Virus record (IMG/VR): IMGVR_UViG_3300036785_000738
Span: 1 to 43,193 of that record
Source: a virus
Length of the DNA stretch: 43,193 nt
Strand: one strand, 5' to 3'
Under the pieces are notes generated by a model. The model was given only the letters and a program-made list of their open reading frames with translations, searched no databases and was not told the origin of the DNA. This document shows positions 1,703-24,822 of the stretch, one piece after another (the stretch's first letter is position 1; the number at the start of each line of letters is the position of its first letter). Both the position numbers and the translations under genes were made by a program.

Positions 1703-2621
1703 GAGGTCGTCATTCCGTGAAAATTGTCGCGGTCGATGGCGAGACATTCTTATCGAAAATGGGATGCCTGCGTCCTATCTCACCGGCCGCAACGGCCCCT
1801 GTCCGCTTTGCAATGCGGGCAAAGACAGGTTCAGGTTCACCAATCTCGCAGGGGATGGCCGGTTCATTTGCTCGACGTGCACGCCGCAATCCGGCAGCGG
1901 CCTCGACCTCTTGAAAGAATGGCTGCGCATCGAGAGTTTCGCCGAGACGGTCAAACTCGCTGAGAGCAAGGTCAGGACCGCCAGATTCGAAATGCCGAAG
2001 ACCGAGGAGCTCTCGGTGCGGGCTCAGGGCACCATGCGCTGGATGTGGGGCGTGGCCGCCCGCGCGCTGACGGGCTTCGACATCGTCTCGCGCTATCTAC
2101 AGTGGCGCAAGATAACGCTCATCCCTGGTCCGACTGCAGTCCGCCGCTTGCCGCAGCATTACAAGCACGGCCTCGTCGACAAGCCAGACGCGCTAGTTGC
2201 GCGCTTCGTCGCCGCGGACGACAGCAGGGCTGTGCTCCACACCACCACGCTAGAGGAGCCTTTCGAAGACCATGAGCGGCTCAAGAAGTACGTTTTGGGC
2301 GCCAAAGTCCCGAACGGCGGCGCAGTACGCCTTATGCCAGCTGGCGAAATCCTTGGCGTCGCGGAGGGCCTCGAGACGGCGCTCTCGGCGTCGCTGCTTT
2401 ACTCTGTGCCGGTCTGGTCGACGCTTGATGCGGGTCATCTGATGCATTGGATTCCTCCGAACGGCGTCCACAAGGTCATCATCTTCGCGGACTTCGACAA
2501 AAATCAAGTGGGACAGAGGGCCGCCGAGGTGCTGGCGTCGAGACTGCGGAAGCAGTTGGACACCGAGGTCCGGTTCCCGGAAGGCGGCTTGAAAGACTTC
2601 AACGACCAGCTTAGGCTGTAA
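1695..2621 (+). CDS. Phage primase with zinc finger and Toprim domain
   Basis: Predicted DNA primase that makes RNA primers for the fork opened by the preceding helicase. The 308-aa product has an N-terminal zinc-binding element with CPLC at 36-39 and a second Cys pair at 59 and 62 (CSTC), as in P4-alpha/DnaG-type primases. It then has a C-terminal Toprim fold: GVAEGLETAL near 218-227 carries the Toprim glutamate and IIFADFDKN near 263-270 carries the Asp-x-Asp. The start ATG at 1695 lies inside the end of the helicase gene (8-nt overlap). No separate replicative helicase domain is fused, so the upstream SF2 helicase is its likely partner. Confidence 0.9.
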   Translation: MHERSSFRENCRGRWRDILIENGMPASYLTGRNGPCPLCNAGKDRFRFTNLAGDGRFICSTCTPQSGSGLDLLKEWLRIESFAETVKLAESKVRTARFEMPKTEELSVRAQGTMRWMWGVAARALTGFDIVSRYLQWRKITLIPGPTAVRRLPQHYKHGLVDKPDALVARFVAADDSRAVLHTTTLEEPFEDHERLKKYVLGAKVPNGGAVRLMPAGEILGVAEGLETALSASLLYSVPVWSTLDAGHLMHWIPPNGVHKVIIFADFDKNQVGQRAAEVLASRLRKQLDTEVRFPEGGLKDFNDQLRL

Positions 2622-13910: not shown

Positions 13911-16121
13911 ATGGCTGTCGAGCAGCTTTTCCCGACTTTCAAGCCCAGCCAGGGGACGCCAGGCGGGTATGACCCGGCCGACCCGGAATCGTACGAAACC
14001 TTTATCGAGGCGATGATAAAGGACTCCATCGATTACGAAGGCACGACCCTCGCCAGGGCTCGCGACACCGCTCAGCGCTATTATTACGGCTACCTTCCTA
14101 ATCTCAGCGGCGACGACCTGACGAATTGGGGCGGCCCCGTGGTCGACCCGACCGCGACTTTCGGCGAAATCCTGGACGCCCAGGACCCGACTGCGGTCAA
14201 CAAGTCGACCTTTGTCTCTACCGACGTGCGCGACGCGGTGATGCTGACGCTGCCGAGCCTTATCCGGCTGTTCGCGGCGTCCGAGAACGTCGTCTACCTC
14301 ACTCCGCGCACCCAAACCGACATCGATATAGCCCAGCAGCAGACTGACTATATCAATTATACATTCTGGCAAGATAATCCAGGATTTCTAATCCTGTATG
14401 GCGCATTCAAGGACGCGCTCACCGTCAAAACCGGATTTGTCAAATGGTGGACGGACGACAACAAGGAAACCAAGCGCAAAACCTGGGTCAATATTAACGC
14501 GCAGCAAATCAATATGCTGCAGCAATCGAACCAGACCGCTAAAGTCGTGCATCTTGGGCAATTGAACCCTGCTGATGGGACTTATGACCGCGTCGTCATA
14601 TCTTACGAGGTATCAAAGCCGATTATCCGCGTCTCCGGGGTGCCGCCGGAAGAGATGCGGCTCGACCGCCAGGCCCGCTCCTTCGCCACCTCGCGCATCG
14701 TCGGTCATCAGCGTCTCGTTCCCATCGATGACCTGGTCGCCATGGGCTACGACCGCGAGCTTTGCCTCGAGTACGTCCAGGGACAGACGACGCCTGAGTT
14801 CACGATGGAGAATCAGCTCCGCAATCCTGGCCGATACACCTCGACCCGCGCCGCTGACGGAGTGATGTACGGTGAATGGTACATCAAGGCCGACAAGGAT
14901 GGCGATGGCGTCGCCGAGCTCCGCTACATCTGCACGATGGGCGAAGCTCACAACATCGTCATGGACGAGTACGCGAACCGAGTGAAATTCGCCGTCTTCT
15001 CCTGCGACCCGATTTCGCACACCATCGTTGGCGACTCTCTCGCCGACTACACGATGGACATGCAGCGCATCAAAACCAACATGCTGCGCGGCGTCCTCGA
15101 CTCTCTGGCCGAGAGCATCAACCCGAAGACGGTCGTCAACGAACTCACCGTCAATCTCGACGACGCGCTCAACGATGATTTGGGCGCCGTCATCCGCACC
15201 CGCGGCGACCCGGGCAACGCCGTCCAGTTCGCCGTCACCCCGTTCGCCGGCCAGCAGGCGATGCCCATTATCGACGCGCTCAATGACGTGCTCGCGCGCC
15301 GCACTGGGCTCACCGACGCCGCTAAGGGGCTCGACCCCAAGGCGCTGCAGTCCTCTACCCAGGTCGGCGTCGACGCCATCATCAACGGCGCGCAGGAGCG
15401 CATCGAACTTATCGCCCGGATCCTAGCCGAAACTGGTTTTAAGGACCTCTTCATCGGCCTCTACAATGAGATTTCCGAGGCCCCCAATCAACAGCGCACG
15501 ATGCGGCTCAACGGCAAGTGGGTTGGAATCGATACCTCGACTTTCGACGCCACTATGGGAGTCGAAGTCAATTCAACGCTTGGCAAAGGAAGCGACCAGA
15601 CCAGGCTCGCCGTGCTGGAGAATATCAAGCAGACCCAACAGATGATTATGCAACAGTTCGGCGTCTCCAATCCAGTCTGCGGTATTCAGCAATTCCTAAA
15701 TACTATCACTGACCAATTAGCTATCGGCAATATTAAAAATGTCGGACGTTATTTCATGACTCCGGACCCACAAACCTTGCAGAACATCGCTGCGCAGCCG
15801 AAAGAGCCAGACGCGATGACCATTGCCGCCCGCGCCCAATTCGAGAAAGTGAAGAGTGAGTCGGCCCAAGCGATTGGCGACCAGCAGCTCAAAATGCAGA
15901 AGCAGCAAGCCGACGAGCAATACCGTCAGGAAGCCCTGCGACAGAAGGCGATTTACGACGCCGGCCGGCTCCAGGTCGAGCAGGAACGTCTGCACCGGGA
16001 ACATGTCCAAAGCGACGTCAAGACCGCGGCCGACCTCTATCAAGCCGAATTGGACGCCGCGACGAAGAAGCATGTCGCCGAGCAACAAGCGCAACGTACA
16101 CAGGGCGACGGCAATGGCTGA
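13911..16121 (+). CDS. Portal protein, P22-like
   Basis: Dodecameric portal at the capsid vertex through which DNA enters and leaves. The 736-aa length and sequence features fit P22/Bcep22-type podovirus portals: an N-terminal region with ARARDTAQRYYYGYLPNL, the PSLIRLFAAS segment, YGAFKDALTVKTGFVKWW, RIVGHQRL and a long helical C-terminal barrel with Gln/Glu/Arg-rich repeats (about residues 640-736). It is first in the late operon, overlaps the next gene by 8 nt, and directly precedes scaffold and capsid as in related phages. Confidence 0.9.
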   Translation: MAVEQLFPTFKPSQGTPGGYDPADPESYETFIEAMIKDSIDYEGTTLARARDTAQRYYYGYLPNLSGDDLTNWGGPVVDPTATFGEILDAQDPTAVNKSTFVSTDVRDAVMLTLPSLIRLFAASENVVYLTPRTQTDIDIAQQQTDYINYTFWQDNPGFLILYGAFKDALTVKTGFVKWWTDDNKETKRKTWVNINAQQINMLQQSNQTAKVVHLGQLNPADGTYDRVVISYEVSKPIIRVSGVPPEEMRLDRQARSFATSRIVGHQRLVPIDDLVAMGYDRELCLEYVQGQTTPEFTMENQLRNPGRYTSTRAADGVMYGEWYIKADKDGDGVAELRYICTMGEAHNIVMDEYANRVKFAVFSCDPISHTIVGDSLADYTMDMQRIKTNMLRGVLDSLAESINPKTVVNELTVNLDDALNDDLGAVIRTRGDPGNAVQFAVTPFAGQQAMPIIDALNDVLARRTGLTDAAKGLDPKALQSSTQVGVDAIINGAQERIELIARILAETGFKDLFIGLYNEISEAPNQQRTMRLNGKWVGIDTSTFDATMGVEVNSTLGKGSDQTRLAVLENIKQTQQMIMQQFGVSNPVCGIQQFLNTITDQLAIGNIKNVGRYFMTPDPQTLQNIAAQPKEPDAMTIAARAQFEKVKSESAQAIGDQQLKMQKQQADEQYRQEALRQKAIYDAGRLQVEQERLHREHVQSDVKTAADLYQAELDAATKKHVAEQQAQRTQGDGNG

Positions 16122-16365
16122 CGACATCGACAAACTGCGTAATCTCGCCCTGGGCGCGCGCGATACGTTGCAGGATGAGGCTTATGAGGCCGGCGTCGAG
16201 ACGATGGAGAAAGTCTACCTCAAACAACTGATTGCAACCGACGATATGAACAAAACCCTCGACTTGGTCAGCAGATTGAGGGTTCTGCATGACGTCGCCA
16301 AAGGGTTGCAACTCCAAATCAACAATCACACTGTGGCGATGAGGAAGGGAATTCGACGTGCCTGA
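16114..16365 (+). CDS. Small helical protein between portal and scaffold (83 aa)
   Basis: Unrecognised helical protein (MADDIDKLRNLALGARDTLQ to a basic C-terminus). It overlaps portal by 8 nt and scaffold by 8 nt, so it is co-translated with head genes and may act in assembly. The ATG at 16114 is preferred because the open frame upstream of it lies inside the portal C-terminus. Confidence 0.6.
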   Translation: MADDIDKLRNLALGARDTLQDEAYEAGVETMEKVYLKQLIATDDMNKTLDLVSRLRVLHDVAKGLQLQINNHTVAMRKGIRRA

Positions 16366-17599
16366 AGGCGTCGAGCAGGCCGCCCAGGCCTTTGAACAGC
16401 AAATCAAGGTCGTCCCGACAGCGGACCGCTCGCGCGACGCCGACACCGGCCGCTTTGTCCAAACGGCGTCTAAGCCTGAACCGATATTCGAACCTCGACC
16501 AGTCGAGGGTGACCCAGAAACTGGCGACACAAACGATGGAGGTGAAAATGCGCGGTATCTCGAGCACGAGAGGAGGGTCGCGGATGGTCGGTCTGAAGAC
16601 CGAGAAGGAACACGGCAAAACCGGATGGATGCAACGCGACCCGAGTCTTTATCGGATGGGGATGCGCGCGCCAGACAGGCCGATAGGGGAGGGAGACGAG
16701 ATGGGCAGCGGAGTGAAGGGTCCGAGGCAAGCGACGCCGAGCGGATCAGTGGCAAGACCGAAGGACGCGGAGATAACGAAGGTGACGAAAGTCCCGAGCG
16801 GTCCAAAGGGGAACCCGAGCGCGACGCCGAGGGGGAAGAATCTGGGGAAGGCGTACTAAAATACGAGGTGAATGTCGACGGGCAGACGATAGAGGTCAGT
16901 CTGCCAGAGGCTCTCAAAGGCTATATCCGCGAGCAAACTTTCCATCAACGGATGAACCAGGTCGACCAGGCGCGCAACCAAGTGCTCGCCGACGCGCAGG
17001 GCGCTTATCAAGTGCGTGACACGCTGCTCGCTCGACTGCAGGAGGCCGATAGGCTCCTGGCCGAACTCACCCCGCCGGAGCCCGATTGGGACCAAGAGTT
17101 CCGCATCAATGGCCAAGCGGCTCGCGAGCGGCAGAAGGCTTATCAACAGGTTTACGCCAAGCGCGCCGCCGTGCAGCAGGAAATGCAGCAGGCGCAGCAG
17201 GTGAACCTGCAGGCCTACGACAACTATACCCGCGACTACGCGGTTCGGCAGTTTTCAGATTTCGTCAAGGAGGCCAACATCCCTGACGAAAAGGTCCTCG
17301 ACGAGACGATGGAGCTCATGCGCTCCTATGCTCGCAAAGAGGGCTTCAACGAGGGTGAAATCGCCACCGTTTACGACAAGCGCATGTTGCGTATCTTGCG
17401 GAAGGCGGCCCTCTACGACCAGTCGGTGACGGCACAACCCAAAGCGGTCATCCCTGGTAAAGGACGCACGTTGACACCCGGTAGCGCTACGCCCATGGGG
17501 AATGCGCCACGCCGACATATCGACGAAGCCCAGAATAGGTTGGCTAAGAGCGGGCGTCTGGATGACGCTGCTGCAGTATTCCAAAGGCTTCTAAAGTAA
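16358..17599 (+). CDS. Scaffolding protein
   Basis: Internal scaffold that guides prohead assembly and is then lost. The 413-aa product has an N-terminal RDADTGRF motif (about 26-33) common to scaffolds, a long acidic disordered stretch (about 50-165), then KYEVNVDGQTIEVSLPEAL near 168-186 and long helices rich in Gln and Arg to the C-terminus. The GTG at 16358 has GAGGAAGGG upstream. A second frame is overprinted on the disordered part at 16548-16859. Portal upstream and capsid downstream support the role. Confidence 0.82.
   Translation: MPEGVEQAAQAFEQQIKVVPTADRSRDADTGRFVQTASKPEPIFEPRPVEGDPETGDTNDGGENARYLEHERRVADGRSEDREGTRQNRMDATRPESLSDGDARARQADRGGRRDGQRSEGSEASDAERISGKTEGRGDNEGDESPERSKGEPERDAEGEESGEGVLKYEVNVDGQTIEVSLPEALKGYIREQTFHQRMNQVDQARNQVLADAQGAYQVRDTLLARLQEADRLLAELTPPEPDWDQEFRINGQAARERQKAYQQVYAKRAAVQQEMQQAQQVNLQAYDNYTRDYAVRQFSDFVKEANIPDEKVLDETMELMRSYARKEGFNEGEIATVYDKRMLRILRKAALYDQSVTAQPKAVIPGKGRTLTPGSATPMGNAPRRHIDEAQNRLAKSGRLDDAAAVFQRLLK
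16548..16859 (+). CDS. Overprinted frame inside scaffold gene (103 aa)
   Basis: A +1-frame reading starting MRGISSTRGGSRMVGLKTEK and ending ...RGKNLGKAY, just before the conserved scaffold domain begins. It has a strong GGAGGTG Shine-Dalgarno 4-5 nt before the ATG. By hand count roughly 26 of 103 codons end in A/T, against about 45 of 105 in the scaffold frame over the same bases; downstream conserved scaffold codons show about 19 of 67. So the overprinted frame has the normal codon bias of this phage and the scaffold frame does not. The product is basic and otherwise unrecognised. Confidence 0.5.
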   Translation: MRGISSTRGGSRMVGLKTEKEHGKTGWMQRDPSLYRMGMRAPDRPIGEGDEMGSGVKGPRQATPSGSVARPKDAEITKVTKVPSGPKGNPSATPRGKNLGKAY

Positions 17600-17609
17600 A
17601 GGTGCTCCC

Positions 17610-18611
17610 ATGGCAAAGGTTACTAACGCATTCACCACCTATTCGGCGGCTGCGAATAGGGAAGACTTATCAAATGCAATCTACAATATCGACCCGTTCG
17701 ACACGCCGGTGATGTCGGCGGCTCGCCGGCGCAACGTCAAGAACCGGATTTTCGATTGGCAGACAGAATTCTTGCCGACCGTCAATCTTGCTAACGCCCA
17801 GGTCGAAGGGTTCTTGCTCGCCAACAGCCCGGCTCAACCGACCATTCGGCAGAACAACGTCACGCAAATCTCAGAACGCGACGCCAGCGTCTCGGGCACC
17901 CAGGAAGAGGTCGACGCCGCGGGCAAGGGCTCCGAAATGGCGCATCAGATGGCGCTCGCCAGCAAAGTGCTGAAGAGCGACATGGAATCCATCATGTGCT
18001 CGCGGCAACAGCGGGTGAACGGCGACGACGCGACTCCAACCGCGCGCACCACCGAGGCGATTGCCCACTGGATTGGCCGCGCTGCGACCAAGACCCTGGC
18101 GGCTGGAGCCGGCGGCGCCGTCGCCGGCGTCACTGCAAGCTTGCCGACCATCGCAGGCGCGGCGCCAGGCGATGCGGCCTTCGCCGCGGTCGCCGGCGGT
18201 TCGCAATTGCAAGTCACCGAGGCCATGCTCGGTGCTGCAATGCAGCAGGCTTACGTCAACGGCGCAAGCCCGAGTCTTTGGATTGTGCCGCCTGGGCCCA
18301 AGCGGACCATTTCCACTTTTACCGGCCGGTCAACGACCCAGGTCCTGGTCGGAAAGACCGAGGTGGTGTCGACGATTGACGTCATCGCCACCGACTTCGG
18401 CCGCATCAAGGTCGCGCCGTCGCGCTGGGTTCCCACCGACGTCGGCCTGCTTATCGACCCTGACTATATCGCCGTCGCTTTCTTCAGAGCCTTCCGTCAG
18501 TACCTGATGGCCCGCGTCGGCGATGCCGAAACCCGGATGATTATCGTCGAATGGGGCGTCGAGATGCGCAATCCCATCGCTCATATCCTGTTCAACGGCA
18601 TTAAGCAGTAA
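17610..18611 (+). CDS. Major capsid protein, SU10/DUF5309 type
   Basis: HK97-fold major capsid protein of the DUF5309/SU10 group. The 333-aa product shows the family pattern: NAIYNIDPFDTPVMSAARRR near the N-terminus, FDWQTEFL, a QISERDASVSGTQEEVDAAG segment, MALASKVLKSDMESIMCSRQ, then the SLWIVPPGPKRTISTFTG loop and a C-terminal VPTDVGLLIDPDYIAV... RNPIAHILFNGIK. No N-terminal prohead protease domain is present. An AAAGGTG site precedes the ATG. It is followed by a hairpin at 18622-18660. Confidence 0.92.
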   Translation: MAKVTNAFTTYSAAANREDLSNAIYNIDPFDTPVMSAARRRNVKNRIFDWQTEFLPTVNLANAQVEGFLLANSPAQPTIRQNNVTQISERDASVSGTQEEVDAAGKGSEMAHQMALASKVLKSDMESIMCSRQQRVNGDDATPTARTTEAIAHWIGRAATKTLAAGAGGAVAGVTASLPTIAGAAPGDAAFAAVAGGSQLQVTEAMLGAAMQQAYVNGASPSLWIVPPGPKRTISTFTGRSTTQVLVGKTEVVSTIDVIATDFGRIKVAPSRWVPTDVGLLIDPDYIAVAFFRAFRQYLMARVGDAETRMIIVEWGVEMRNPIAHILFNGIKQ

Positions 18612-18683: not shown

Positions 18684-19049
18684 ATGAAGCGCTTCTTGCT
18701 CGCTGCGGGGCTATTCGCGGCGTTCTCGATGCCGGTCACGGCGCAACAAAGCAATGTGCCGGCCACGAGTTGCGCCGGCACAATCACCTTGGGCGGAACG
18801 CCGCAAATCGCCATTCCGGCTGGCGCGGCCGCCCATGGATGGATACTCGGTAACCCGTCGACCACGGAAATCCTGGCTTATTCATTCACGGGCGCTGCGG
18901 TGACTGCGACCGGGCCTTGGGTAGTTGGCGTGACGACAGCCACCGCAACGACGTCTTCGGCGGTCAGTCCGCCAAACGTGGCGACTGGGGCTGCGGTGAG
19001 TGTGGGCGCGGCGACGACGGCGCACGCATTCAGTTGTGCTTATTGGTGA
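18684..19049 (+). CDS. Signal-peptide-bearing hypothetical protein (121 aa)
   Basis: Begins with a typical Sec signal peptide MKRFLLAAGLFAAFSMPVTA followed by Gln (likely cleavage after residue 20). The mature part is Thr/Ala/Gly/Val-rich and beta-like with two Cys. Its place right after the capsid gene would suggest a capsid decoration protein, but a signal peptide is odd for that. AGGAGAGG precedes the ATG. It converges with the endonuclease-like gene by 10 nt. Confidence 0.6.
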   Translation: MKRFLLAAGLFAAFSMPVTAQQSNVPATSCAGTITLGGTPQIAIPAGAAAHGWILGNPSTTEILAYSFTGAAVTATGPWVVGVTTATATTSSAVSPPNVATGAAVSVGAATTAHAFSCAYW

Positions 19050-19528
19050 ATGATGTGACGTCGATTGGCTCTTTGTTCTTTGGCCGTCGCCCAACGACAA
19101 TTTCCTGGCGTATAATGGCCATTGGGGTCAATGCGGTCGATGGAACGGCCTGGCGGCGGCTCGCCCATGTCGGCAAGAAAGTTCTCAAACGTGAGCCATC
19201 GCTCACAAACCGTAATACCCCGACCACCCCAATCCTTGAATTGCTTGTTTCTTGGATTAAAACAGCGGTCTTTCATGCCTCGCCAGCAGCCATAAGCGCG
19301 GGTTACGCAGTTACCTACCGAATGGCCATGCCTGCGGTTTTGTTCGTTTTCCAGTTTGCGGCAACCGCAACTAATCGTATGTCCGTTTCTAAGATTTCCA
19401 CGAGTGACAATGGTTTGTTTCCCGCAATCACAAAGACACATCCAATGAACTTTTCCAGCTGGTTTGCTGTGAATATGAAGGGCGAGAAGCCGGCCGAATT
19501 TCTGTCCCGCTATATCGAGAATGTGCAT
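19040..19528 (-). CDS. HNH/AP2-like homing endonuclease
   Basis: Likely selfish DNA-cutting element inserted on the opposite strand between two late genes. The 162-aa product has zinc-binding Cys pairs (CLCDCG; CGC), a GCWRGMKDRCFNP segment and the conserved WGGRGITVCERW and SIDRIDPNGHYTPGNCRWAT blocks typical of phage HNH/AP2-like endonucleases. The ATG at 19528 gives the conserved MHILDIAGQKFGRLLAL start. Its start overlaps that of the plus-strand gene at 19521, and both ends abut neighbouring genes, so the insertion is very tight. Confidence 0.8.
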   Translation of the reverse strand: MHILDIAGQKFGRLLALHIHSKPAGKVHWMCLCDCGKQTIVTRGNLRNGHTISCGCRKLENEQNRRHGHSVGNCVTRAYGCWRGMKDRCFNPRNKQFKDWGGRGITVCERWLTFENFLADMGEPPPGRSIDRIDPNGHYTPGNCRWATAKEQRANRRHIIHQ

Positions 19529-19823
19529 GCCTGAAACCAAAAGAGTTTATTACGCAAAGAACGGCATCATTCGGACGATGCTCACTGACGACGAATATCC
19601 TGATAGGGTTGTCGTTAGAACAAGTCAAGACGTCGAACCGATATTGGAGAGCGCGGCTGCGCGCCGCGACAATCATGACCCTCGGCGCGACATGTGGGGG
19701 GTTGGTATGGTCCCGGTTGCGGTCTGGGAGAAGTCCGTTCACGAACAGTGGGACGAGGGCGATTGGAAAAAGTGGTGGAACGGTGACGGGAAACCCTTCC
19801 GCACTGCGCCAGGATTGGTTTGA
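19521..19823 (+). CDS. Conserved podovirus structural-block protein with QDVEPIL motif (100 aa)
   Basis: The product contains TSQDVEPILESAAARRDNHD, then GMVPVAVWEKSVHEQWDEGD and a closing FRTAPG. This order matches a small protein I have seen beside portal, capsid and adaptor genes of many podoviruses; its function is not established. The start is ATG at 19521 or 19527 (MPETKRV). It overlaps the 5' end of the endonuclease-like gene and the next gene by 4 nt. Confidence 0.65.
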   Translation: MCMPETKRVYYAKNGIIRTMLTDDEYPDRVVVRTSQDVEPILESAAARRDNHDPRRDMWGVGMVPVAVWEKSVHEQWDEGDWKKWWNGDGKPFRTAPGLV

Positions 19824-20470
19824 TGAGTGACTTTGGCACGCTCAAGACTTCAATTATGGATTGGGCCAACCGGCAGGATTGGTCCGACGCTCTCGTCACG
19901 TCTTTCATTCGAATGTCGGAGCAGAAGTTTAATCAAGAACTGCGCGTCAAATCGATGATAAAGCATGAAATCGCTCAAATCGGAAGTCGTTGCGGGCAGT
20001 TGCCGTATGATTGGCTGGAAATGGATTTGGTCAGAATTGAAAGTCCTCTATCCGCCGATGGGTTCATGCCAATCCATTACAAGCCGCGCGATGAGTTCTT
20101 CCGCGCGACAACACGAGATGACCAAAGTTCCGGAGCGATGACCAATCGCTATTATACGATTGAAGGGACAGAAATCTATTTTGGCGGTGTTCCGGACAAA
20201 ATTAATGGCACGACTTATAAGATTGCCTATTTCGCTGAAGTGCCGGTCTTGTCGGACACTCAGTCGTCATGGCTCTATACCAAATATCCCAGTCTTTATA
20301 TGTATGGTACGATGATGAATGCGGCTATGCATGCTGTGGGAGAAGAACAGAGCGCTGCCATTTGGAAAAACCTATGTGAGGATACGATAGGCAAGTTGAA
20401 CAAAGAGTATCTATTATCGAAGGCATCTGGTTCGCGTGTTACGCGCTCTAGGTTGAGGAGCTTCGGGTAA
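19820..20470 (+). CDS. Head-tail adaptor protein, SU10/gp4-like
   Basis: Adaptor that connects portal to tail. The 216-aa product has the family features: TLKTSIMDWANRQDWSDALV, a FIRMSEQKFNQELRVKSMI helix, LPYDWLEMDLVRIES and KYPSLYMYGTMMNAAMHAVG near the C-terminus. It follows the QDVEPIL gene as in SU10-like phages. Base composition is lower in GC here than in capsid or portal. Confidence 0.8.
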   Translation: MMSDFGTLKTSIMDWANRQDWSDALVTSFIRMSEQKFNQELRVKSMIKHEIAQIGSRCGQLPYDWLEMDLVRIESPLSADGFMPIHYKPRDEFFRATTRDDQSSGAMTNRYYTIEGTEIYFGGVPDKINGTTYKIAYFAEVPVLSDTQSSWLYTKYPSLYMYGTMMNAAMHAVGEEQSAAIWKNLCEDTIGKLNKEYLLSKASGSRVTRSRLRSFG

Positions 20471-20473
20471 CCA

Positions 20474-20755
20474 ATGCCGACGTTTGGCGCTTGGACAGAG
20501 GACATTTGCATCGGAGAAAGCCTCCCCGTGCTTCTCACTGAAGATGGATATCCAATCCTAACCGAAAATGGTTATCCAATCACAGTTGATGGAGGGTCGC
20601 CAATCAATGGCACTATGTGGATGTCTCAGTCAGCATATACAACATCATGGACTGATGATAGCTGTTCAGGAGAATATACTGTTAATTATCTACTAAATGA
20701 AGACGGAACGCCAATCTTAGATGAAAATGGCAACCCAATAGTGGTGGAATCATGA
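20474..20755 (+). CDS. Small repeat protein with LxExGxPI repeats (93 aa)
   Basis: Contains two copies of a doubled motif: LLTEDGYPILTENGYPI (about 21-37) and LLNEDGTPILDENGNPI (about 72-88). These short repeats are found in phage tail fibres and likely form beta-structure. Four nt separate it from the adaptor, and it overlaps the tail fibre gene by 4 nt (ATGA), so it may be a fibre accessory. Confidence 0.6.
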   Translation: MPTFGAWTEDICIGESLPVLLTEDGYPILTENGYPITVDGGSPINGTMWMSQSAYTTSWTDDSCSGEYTVNYLLNEDGTPILDENGNPIVVES

Positions 20756-23700
20756 AACGCATTGTCGCTGCTGTTCTCGCTTTCCTGGCGTTCACTTCGG
20801 TCGTGCATGCGCAGGCAATTTCAAGCCTTCCTCGGGCGACCACAGTTGCTCCAGACGACTTGTTTTCAATCGCCCAGGCTACTCCTGGCACATCAACTGG
20901 ATATACCACAAAAAGCCTGCCCTTTTCGGTCATTCAAAGCACGATTGGGACAGGCGGCGGCGGGGGACTGACCATCGGCGCGCCGGTGGGCGGCGGAGTT
21001 AACAATTCGCTGTTGGTCGTGCTTTCAGGCAACCTTGCCCAAAACACATCTCCAGGCGGAACGACACAATTTTTACGGGGCGATTTGACCTGGGCGGTTC
21101 CCCCAAGCGGCACCGGTGGAGGCGGAGCAGTTACATCAGGCACGGCAGGACAACTGGGAATTTACGCCGCAACTGGGACGACAATTTCTGGAACCAATGC
21201 TGGAACTGGAGTCGTCACTGCCTTGGGCGTTGCGCCAGGAGCCATGGGCTCGTTCACGACTCAGAATGGCGCTATCACGACTGGTGATTGCCTCAAGTGG
21301 GGTCCTGGAGTTCAGGACGCTGGCGCGGCGTGTGGAAGCGGCGGCGGGGGATCGCTCACGGTCACGGATGGAAGTCATCCCGTCGCTGGCACGACGAACT
21401 TGACCTTTTCCGGAGCTACGGTTTCTGGGACCACGCCAAACGCCACTGTGACTATCACTGGCGGCGGCGGGGGGACAATCACCGCAGGCACTACGCCGAC
21501 ATCCGGCTTCACGACTGGTCAGTATTTGACGAGCAATGGCAGTGTTGTAACGGCCGCCGCTGGCTCCGGCCTATCTGCAATCCCACCCAACACCATCCTT
21601 GCCAACCCGTCGCCAACCGTAACTCAAACTCCCGTCGCGTCGAAACGCTCTGACATTGTTGCAACCGACTACGGCATGCAGTCTTCGATTGGCGCTGCAT
21701 TTGATAACTCCCCGTTCGTCCAGGCGCTAATGAATAGCGCAGGACAAGCATCTGTCTGCTGCTATGGCGGCCCGACAATCACATTTCCACCCAACCCAAA
21801 TAACTTACTCTCTACCGATTATTATTTCACCCAGCCATTCGTTCTATCTCGTGGGGCGAGGATAAATTGTGGTGGTAGTGCTAAGAATGGCGGGAGCGGG
21901 GGAACAACTGTCCGGTTGATCTTCGCTGCTGGTGTGGACGGATTTGAGCAAGATCAACCGTTGTTAACGGACGATGGCGGAAGCGGTGGTGGAAGTGATA
22001 TAAATGGCTGTTCGGTTTGGTCGGTAGGCTATGGCACCGGCTTTTTAGGCGGTAACGTCATTGCCGGCATTCCTACTGTTCATACTGGCGGTTCTGGCTA
22101 TATTGGCACATCCGGGACGATGACATGGAACACTAGTGGTTGCTCGACCAATCCGGTGTTGAACGTTACTGCTTCGGGCGGCGTCATCAATGCTGTAACT
22201 AGCGTAGTGAACCCAGGCTTCTGCTCTATACCTGGTGAGTCTAATAATACATCTTGGAGCGCTGGTGGTGGTTTGAGCGGCGGTTCCGGAGCAAGCTTCA
22301 CCCTAGTCCTCACCCCAACGGCGAATACGAACACCGTAACCGGGATTTTTATGGGCACCATAATCGGGGCCTCATATGCAATAGTTCCCCAAGCCGGGGA
22401 TGGAGTAATAGTTTTATCATACCAACCAACTCCGGGCGGATTCGTCGGGCACGGCGCATACCTAGCCTCCTACAACACCGGAACTCACGTCGCGACCCTT
22501 GCCGCGGGCTATACAATTCCCACCACAATCAAGGGTATCGATGCGATTATTTACGATTTGCCGGTTTCGCAGAAATATACGATTACGTCGACGATTGGCA
22601 GCAACGTCGGTACGATCCTTTCTGGTCCGCGTCCAATCAAGCCAGGAGCGCAGATCTGGACTGACGCCTTCCCCATGGGAACGGTAATTATGCAGGTGTC
22701 GAGCTCAATAGCGGGCTCGGTAACGGTTCATTCGGCCGGCAGCGGTTTTACTGGGGCTTCCGGCACCATGACGTGGAGCGGTCTTGGCTGCTCCACCAAC
22801 CCAGTGCTGAATGTGACGGCTTCTGGCGGGGCGATAACCGGCGTTTCGAGCGTTGCGAATGGCGGTGTGTGTAACTCATCGTGGCCATCATCGACGGCGA
22901 CGACTTGGACCGCGGGCGGAGCCCTTAGCGGCGGCTCTGGCGCAGCCTTCAACATGACGTTCAATGAGTCTTACAATGTTACCGATATCGCAACCTCGCC
23001 GTCAGGACAGGTCGCGTCGGTTACCCACACATCTGGATCGCCCGGTCAAATGTGGGAAATGCCCACCGGTATTATGAGACGCGTTGGGTCTTCGACGCAT
23101 GGAAGTGGGGCAATAGGATTTGGCGGCGCGGGAATGGCTATAGAATGTTACGGGGCCTTCCGTCCTGCAACAGGTTGTAACGGCTCATTTGACCAAGAAG
23201 GGGTTTATGATTTCGACCTAATTGGTCGTCTGGATGCCGGAGATAATTCTGGCGGGGCCACGGATATTTCGGATGCATTTTCGAGCAATTTCGTATCGGA
23301 TATTATTGAGGCGAGCCAGATTGGTAGCTTGTATTTGGGCGGACAGTCGAATAGCGCCGAGTCTGGTACGTCGAACAATGCGGCAATATCCCTTTGTTTG
23401 TCTGAAAATCAGTCTGTATTCATTGGCATGTATGCTGGTTCTATCGGCGCACATGGAATGTGTATGGCTCAAGATGGGGGCGGCAATACAACGTATACAC
23501 TTGCGCCAGTCGATGGAGGTCAGGTGTGGATTGGCCCACAACAAGGCGGCGGCCCAGTCGGCGCTCCTAGCATCACCGATGGTGGAATGGTAGACGGATG
23601 GGCTTTCACTCGCGGCAAGGCGTCAACAATCAACAACGTAACGTCCCTCACCGGCTTCCCCTGCACCTCATTCAATACTCTGCCTGCAAACTCAACCGAA

Positions 23701-24822
23701 GTGCCGATGTTCGGCTTTGCGCCCGACACTTGTGGGTCCAATGCCTCATTTCAGTTTATCTGGAATTCAGTTGACTTGTCATTCGACTTAATAAACCTCT
23801 CTGGTGGAACTCCGCTTCGTGTTGTCTCTACCGCGAACCCAGGCGTCACTGGTTATAAGGGCTATCCAACCCCAACTAACATCGCCTTACCCGAAGTCCT
23901 TAGCGGCATTCTTATGGGCAACACGCAGTCCCTAGCGACGGGGACTGAACGACTGTTCGATTGCGGCACAGCAGCGCCCCCAGATTCTTACCGCAAACAA
24001 GGCGACTTACATTGCAACCTCGCGCCATCTGTTGGCGGGAATATGTTTTGGTCGGAAACAGCCGACGGAGCTGGGAATTGGTATCCCGCCGCGCCGATTT
24101 CGAATAGCAAGACAGTTCCTGATTACACAATGGCGGTGGTGCGGAGCGGTAAAGCAGCTCCCACTGATTTGACAGGACGCGTCACTCTCGCTGCTGGCGT
24201 ATTCGTACAAGCCCTCGCTGGAAACTACACGACAATTCCGAATTGCATCGCGCAAGATGTAACGACGCCGACGAACAACGCCTATGTGGTTGAATCACTT
24301 AACACGCCAAGCGGGACAGGCAGCGCCTCGACCGTCAATGTGAACGCTTCCGCATCAGCACCATTTCCAGGCGGCGCGGGTTATCCGACACAAGGGTGGG
24401 CGAACACTGGCTCTCCTGGCCTGCCCACTGCAGAATGGTTGGAATATGATTATGGGTCGGGCCATAGCGCAACCCTTACTGGCTACTCGTTATTCCGCAG
24501 CAGCACCCAGCCTGGAGGTTGGAACAATAATCAATATTCTCCGGGCAACTGGACATTCCAAGGCTCAAACGATAATTCGACATGGACGACATTAGATACG
24601 CGAACAGCGCAGACTATCGTCGCTGATGCTACGCCAACGGGATATAGCTTTACGAACTCGACGGCTTATCGTTACTATCGGATAAACATTACTCAAGCGA
24701 GCACTCCCCAAGCTTTGGTCAACATTACAGTGATGGGATTTGTGCCGCCATTGGGTAACGCTATCACTTTGCATGGGACAGGGACTGACGTGGTGAAGTA
24801 TATCTGCATGGGGGAGAATTGA
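20752..24822 (+). CDS. Large tail fibre/spike with signal-peptide-like N-terminus and discoidin-like C-terminus
   Basis: Likely host-recognition protein, 1356 aa. It starts with a Sec-like signal MKRIVAAVLAFLAFTSVVHA. Residues 25-270 are Gly/Thr/Ala-rich beta repeats as in fibre shafts. Two related copies of an approximately 80-aa unit (VHTGGSGYIGTSGTMTW...CSTNPVLNVTASGG and VHSAGSGFTGASGTMTW...CSTNPVLNVTASGG) lie near residues 440-530 and 655-745. The middle looks like a beta-helix spike. Residues about 1208-1333 resemble an F5/8 type C (discoidin) sugar-binding domain (GNWTFQGSNDNSTWTTLDTR, YRYYRINIT). Confidence 0.8.
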   Translation: MKRIVAAVLAFLAFTSVVHAQAISSLPRATTVAPDDLFSIAQATPGTSTGYTTKSLPFSVIQSTIGTGGGGGLTIGAPVGGGVNNSLLVVLSGNLAQNTSPGGTTQFLRGDLTWAVPPSGTGGGGAVTSGTAGQLGIYAATGTTISGTNAGTGVVTALGVAPGAMGSFTTQNGAITTGDCLKWGPGVQDAGAACGSGGGGSLTVTDGSHPVAGTTNLTFSGATVSGTTPNATVTITGGGGGTITAGTTPTSGFTTGQYLTSNGSVVTAAAGSGLSAIPPNTILANPSPTVTQTPVASKRSDIVATDYGMQSSIGAAFDNSPFVQALMNSAGQASVCCYGGPTITFPPNPNNLLSTDYYFTQPFVLSRGARINCGGSAKNGGSGGTTVRLIFAAGVDGFEQDQPLLTDDGGSGGGSDINGCSVWSVGYGTGFLGGNVIAGIPTVHTGGSGYIGTSGTMTWNTSGCSTNPVLNVTASGGVINAVTSVVNPGFCSIPGESNNTSWSAGGGLSGGSGASFTLVLTPTANTNTVTGIFMGTIIGASYAIVPQAGDGVIVLSYQPTPGGFVGHGAYLASYNTGTHVATLAAGYTIPTTIKGIDAIIYDLPVSQKYTITSTIGSNVGTILSGPRPIKPGAQIWTDAFPMGTVIMQVSSSIAGSVTVHSAGSGFTGASGTMTWSGLGCSTNPVLNVTASGGAITGVSSVANGGVCNSSWPSSTATTWTAGGALSGGSGAAFNMTFNESYNVTDIATSPSGQVASVTHTSGSPGQMWEMPTGIMRRVGSSTHGSGAIGFGGAGMAIECYGAFRPATGCNGSFDQEGVYDFDLIGRLDAGDNSGGATDISDAFSSNFVSDIIEASQIGSLYLGGQSNSAESGTSNNAAISLCLSENQSVFIGMYAGSIGAHGMCMAQDGGGNTTYTLAPVDGGQVWIGPQQGGGPVGAPSITDGGMVDGWAFTRGKASTINNVTSLTGFPCTSFNTLPANSTEVPMFGFAPDTCGSNASFQFIWNSVDLSFDLINLSGGTPLRVVSTANPGVTGYKGYPTPTNIALPEVLSGILMGNTQSLATGTERLFDCGTAAPPDSYRKQGDLHCNLAPSVGGNMFWSETADGAGNWYPAAPISNSKTVPDYTMAVVRSGKAAPTDLTGRVTLAAGVFVQALAGNYTTIPNCIAQDVTTPTNNAYVVESLNTPSGTGSASTVNVNASASAPFPGGAGYPTQGWANTGSPGLPTAEWLEYDYGSGHSATLTGYSLFRSSTQPGGWNNNQYSPGNWTFQGSNDNSTWTTLDTRTAQTIVADATPTGYSFTNSTAYRYYRINITQASTPQALVNITVMGFVPPLGNAITLHGTGTDVVKYICMGEN

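Follow-up and report, generated by a model that had tools for sequence, protein, structure and literature searches.

A small basic protein very probably encoded out of frame within the capsid scaffold gene of a soil phage and its relatives

In phage lambda, Rz1 is embedded in the +1 frame within Rz, with the overlap falling on flexible linkers, and phages with separated Rz/Rz1 architectures are also mentioned (PMC5295617). This is the nearest known architecture to that of the locus described here, which resembles it in that the +1 frame of one phage gene would contain the entire coding sequence of a small Pro-rich protein, again over a flexible linker. The host gene, however, is that of a capsid scaffold rather than of a spanin, and there is no sequence relation between the two systems. 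Moreover, the product is strongly basic, carries no signal peptide and, having no Cys and a polar basic N-terminus, lacks the lipobox of an o-spanin such as Rz1.

The head genes at this locus have described counterparts in SU10- and LUZ24-type phages (Ochrobactrum phage OH, phiM5 and tf), which share the portal, scaffold and capsid cluster and have a homologous scaffold (phrog_3927). In contrast to our locus, no such nested gene is annotated in OH, phiM5 or tf, and profile searches of their records gave no match to the nested-gene family. Searches of the open-access literature found no account of a capsid scaffold gene containing a nested one; the proteomics of SU10 lists a scaffold, and text searches there gave no mention of an overlap or a frameshift.

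We analysed a stretch of 43,193 nucleotides (the window; positions 1 to 43,193 of IMG/VR record IMGVR_UViG_3300036785_000738), the relevant features of which are collected in Table 1. The host gene was recognized as the phrog_3927 scaffold both by profile match and by its position between the portal and major capsid protein genes. Lying wholly inside it and out of frame, as in an Rz1-like architecture, the nested reading frame keeps start signals of its own and a product beyond what the scaffold frame demands. From the comparisons below, we are confident that this overlapping frame is a real, conserved protein-coding gene that was missed by annotation.

Table 1. Features of the scaffold locus in the window
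Feature	Positions	Strand	Basis or remark
Portal protein (SU10_portal)	13911..16121	+	PF23899 8.6e-154, phrog_1216
Small gene between portal and scaffold, 83 aa with Met	16114..16365	+	No family; distinct from nested gene
Head scaffolding protein, 413 aa, GTG start	16358..17599	+	phrog_3927 E=1.6e-28
GGAGGTG picked by the sequence-only reading	16538..16544	+	Encoded by scaffold D-G-G-E motif
103-aa open reading frame as first reported	16548..16859	+	Upstream start not conserved in relatives
Acidic linker of scaffold	about 16548-16862	+	Within 16358..17599
Shine-Dalgarno AGGAGG, 7 nt before ATG 16584	16571..16576	+	Written by scaffold Arg codons AGG AGG
Nested gene (very probable), 91 aa, +1 frame of scaffold (MVGLKTEKEHGKTGWMQ...PKGNPSATPRGKNLGKAY)	16584..16859	+	Start, Shine-Dalgarno and product family conserved in relatives
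Major capsid protein (SU10_MCP)	17610..18611	+	PF17236 7.7e-78
Virion structural protein	19820..20470	+	phrog_2941

A sequence-only reading of the window had proposed a real 103-aa gene in the +1 frame, preceded by GGAGGTG and ending just before the conserved scaffold domain. The frame, the motif and the position of the stop are all as it described, and the gene itself is borne out by homologues of the product and by purifying selection in the +1 frame. The start, however, was misplaced. GGAGGTG is written by a GGE/GGD motif of the scaffold and is not conserved as a start in relatives; the conserved ATG, with its own Shine-Dalgarno (SD) sequence, lies 12 codons inside the reported frame, and these first 12 codons are probably untranslated or mark an alternative start.

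Several other frames lie near the nested gene. The small gene between portal and scaffold is without a PHROG match, and genes of similar size and unknown function occupy this place in OH, phiM5 and tf. On the minus strand, an open frame of 299 aa (16018-16917) spans the nested-gene region; relatives have long antisense frames too, and this one is probably a product of base composition. Between the capsid and structural genes, an open reading frame (19040-19540, minus strand) resembles an HNH homing endonuclease by eye, and copies related to it lie at varying places in relatives L150 (two, 1085-1609 and 1811-2332, minus strand), L242, L145 and L294. In four relatives (L015, L016, L018 and L024) the head genes run portal, terminase, scaffold, the terminase match falling between the other two; unlike in these, the terminase of the window is upstream and on the opposite strand. 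Further downstream, a tail-protein-like open reading frame of 1356 aa (20752-24822, plus strand) has unusually many A/T-ending codons compared to the neighbouring head genes (626/1356), and is perhaps a recent acquisition.

Family searches with the nested product gave no match above cutoff in Pfam, PHROG, PDB or isolated phages. A Mucin-like match in Pfam scored 19.2 bits, below the cutoff of 28.7, and was set aside as compositional. Queried directly, the 103-aa product had no homologue, neither tblastn against phage records nor blastn using a nested gene returned a relative, and scaffold relatives were absent among genome contigs. The family emerged only after the scaffold relatives were aligned; on these searches it appears to be new. 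In the first eight relatives aligned with the window, the +1 frame was open across the linker and ended just before the conserved domain. In all, 80 viral contigs with scaffold homologues were recovered, and the +1 products of the relatives align as a single family. The window copy is divergent and aligns with the family at MVGL, YRMGMRAPDRP and KGNPSATPR; against a hidden Markov model built without it, it scored 12.9 bits, while the best of 1000 synonymous shuffles reached 11.5. It has no near-identical relative usable for direct dN/dS.

A scan with the +1 alignment matched 70 viral loci, and at some of these the coding sequence lies outside the scaffold. Homologues of the product, which the sequence-only reading had suggested looking for, thus exist both nested in the scaffold and free-standing in related phages. 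The free open reading frames are about 59-75 aa long, have their own start and mostly an SD-like sequence, and share the core [KR]RPPKLKGRVAND...RSAxMPPPTxDTQEPR. They were found at three kinds of site: between the capsid gene and the orthologue of the window's phrog_2941 gene (19820-20470), directly upstream of the latter (with a 4-nt overlap in L150); upstream of the terminase; and near a primase-like gene (L295). The L316 free copy also carries the C-terminal motifs, and that of L169 has an N-terminal variant common to the nested genes of L030 and L054. A +1 match in a Maricaulis MAG proved to be an unrelated 260-codon frame that fails the family model, and was dismissed.

With profile A5, which favours the RPPKLKGRVAND module and misses divergent members such as the window copy, exactly one match was found in 24 of 39 records and two matches in none. 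L256 and L300-L304 have both a nested gene without the RPPKLKGRVAND module and a free copy carrying it, the nested gene there consisting of the C-terminal motifs only; elsewhere the two modules occur together in a single gene. The nested gene may have gained the RPPKLKGRVAND module from a free-standing gene, or given it up to one.

On a quick tree of scaffold plus capsid (102 rows), every main branch of a 77-row clade (SH-aLRT 99) includes the nested state. The nested copy was lost at least three times, in the L164/L174/L169, L070/L160 and L242/L243/L246 groups. Free copies are present in all three of these lineages, though not in every member; none was found in L179, L181, L164, L157, L074, L173 or L177, most of which are fragments. 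Because the nested gene arises at the base of one clade and the outgroups have the linker with no detectable gene, the comparison favours a history in which the gene was overprinted on an older scaffold linker and then escaped several times to free loci. The sequence-only reading had proposed the opposite, that the linker was overprinted on an older gene; insertion of a free gene into the scaffold would be one such route. That history, which concerns only the order of events and is compatible with the gene being real, would be in line with the existence of free-standing forms, with the free RPPKLKGRVAND module in L256 and L300-L304, and with the stronger constraint on the +1 frame (see below). 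We nevertheless consider it unlikely: outgroup scaffolds already have the acidic linker, while profile searches of the outgroup records detected no nested or free gene, free-only lineages are placed inside nested clades, and codon bias, as shown below, is not diagnostic. One outgroup, L224, gave a weak match (E=0.002 over 21 residues) that we did not take for a homologue. The direction of overprinting, favoured here from older linker to younger gene, depends on the quick tree and on outgroup homologues not having been missed.

The start signals of the nested gene were compared in 67 distinct sequences carrying the start. The scaffold codons for E-R-R-x-A-D-G read GAG AGG AGR ... GAT G, which gives AGGAG or AGGAGG, about 7 nt and an ATG. 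Among the 60 cases with Arg in the SD, the codon is AGG in 56, AGA in 4 and CGN in none, although elsewhere in the same scaffold genes AGG makes up 10.4% and AGR 17.9%. Likewise, the Asp that bears the start is GAT in 62 of 62, against 36% elsewhere (the remaining 5 of the 67 have AAT). In L006 the scaffold residues are altered to QEELANG, and AGGAGG and ATG are nonetheless kept; L070, L074 and L075 have CGT/CGG and GAC instead, and with them neither SD nor ATG. Synthesis of the product as a frameshift fusion to the scaffold N-terminus, rather than by internal initiation, is very improbable. In some relatives the +1 frame is indeed open back to the scaffold start, but several others carry +1 stops upstream of the conserved ATG, between it and the position of ATG 16548, and both SD and ATG are conserved.

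It is the comparison with relatives that goes far beyond chance; the open frame alone does not. When scaffold codons were permuted synonymously (5000 shuffles), the 91-codon stretch stayed open in 74% and the 103-codon stretch in 58%; ATG, SD and open frame came together in 1.6%. The +1 frame is readily open because a +1 stop (TAA, TAG or TGA) needs T at scaffold codon position 2, and the residues with such codons (F/L/I/M/V) are few in the acidic linker; for the same reason, the frame stops at the onset of the hydrophobic domain. The codon bias on which the sequence-only reading had relied is similarly uninformative. Its counts were accurate, with A/T-ending codons making up 26/103 (25%) in the +1 frame and 43/103 (42%) in the scaffold frame, against about 25% and 43% claimed. 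However, position-1 GC is equal in linkers without and with the nested gene (0.839 against 0.836), and scaffold GC3 is even lower in outgroup linkers, so that the bias does not mark a real gene and, given these two sets of linkers, was also rejected as a sign of gene age. A linker poor in residues with T at position 2, with the +1 frame open automatically and no protein made, would account for this openness and for L070 and L074, where the +1 frame is also long although the start is missing. We regard such a chance frame as extremely improbable, since the SD and ATG are kept through unusual codon choice, the substitution pattern is altered, and both purifying selection in the +1 frame and free-standing homologues of the product already contradict it.

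Substitutions were then counted by scaffold codon position. In 26 independent pairs, their frequencies at positions 1/2/3 were.220/.157/.194 in the overlap and.126/.091/.261 downstream (position 3 versus 1, overlap against downstream, P=4e-26). The position-3/position-1 ratio of the linker was 0.88-1.05 with the nested gene and 2.21 without it (1.05 versus 2.21, P=1.6e-6), linkers lacking the gene thus showing the ordinary pattern. Changes silent in the scaffold but altering the +1 product occurred at.142 per site and the reverse at.213 (23 pairs), a ratio of.67 (bootstrap.55-.79). The doubly silent rate was.413 but came from 13 changes on only 31.5 sites, which makes absolute omegas imprecise. 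These rates, the check on both frames that the sequence-only reading had proposed, point to purifying selection in the +1 frame and to constraint on the scaffold frame as well, the +1 frame appearing somewhat more strongly constrained over the same bases. Synonymous change would likewise be suppressed by a regulatory site or RNA element within the scaffold mRNA, but this is hardly credible here: the constraint tracks +1 codon positions, independent open reading frames with their own starts repeat the amino-acid motifs in unrelated DNA contexts, and such free-standing protein homologues exclude both this explanation and an artefact of composition.

The predicted proteins of the family are small (54-98 aa), strongly basic and rich in Pro, Ser, Thr, Lys and Arg. 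Nested members have a charge of +8 to +18 and a pI of 10-12, and the five free copies examined, at +8 to +15, are basic too; the scaffold linker that shares the bases of the nested genes has the opposite sign, with a median charge of -15. AlphaFold2 gave a pLDDT of 63-65 with almost no secondary structure, so that the product is predicted to be disordered and its structure gives no function. Within the scaffold mRNA, ribosomes would be offered the internal AGGAGG (16571-16576) and ATG (16584), and internal initiation on the late structural mRNA would translate the nested gene, whose protein would then be made together with the scaffold and from the same message.

From the charge of the nested product, and from the place of its gene among the head genes of most relatives, we tentatively propose that it may be a disordered, cationic accessory in head assembly or in DNA packaging, which might for example bind DNA or the acidic linker of the scaffold in the procapsid. 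Phage T4 makes small, basic internal head proteins of the IPI-IPIII type with its head genes. The likeness of the nested product to these would be one of functional analogy only; what suggests an internal head or DNA-condensing protein is only its charge and place. The free copy of L295, beside a primase-like gene, argues against a strictly morphogenetic role. A more specific idea, which we hold to be rather doubtful, is that the cationic product partners the scaffold's own acidic linker, the two forming an oppositely charged disordered pair in procapsid assembly, and that the gene repeatedly escapes, freeing the linker from double coding.

Long frames over disordered linkers are usually meaningless and codon bias alone misleads; the deciding evidence was the conservation of the SD and start together with the free homologues. 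On that evidence, a core phage morphogenesis gene very probably harbours a conserved unannotated gene in a soil phage and in dozens of its relatives, which would add a protein family that neither Pfam nor PHROGs contains. Natural controls are rare for overlapping genes, and here relatives have the gene nested, free-standing or both. The birth, constraint and escape of overlapping genes thereby become directly testable.
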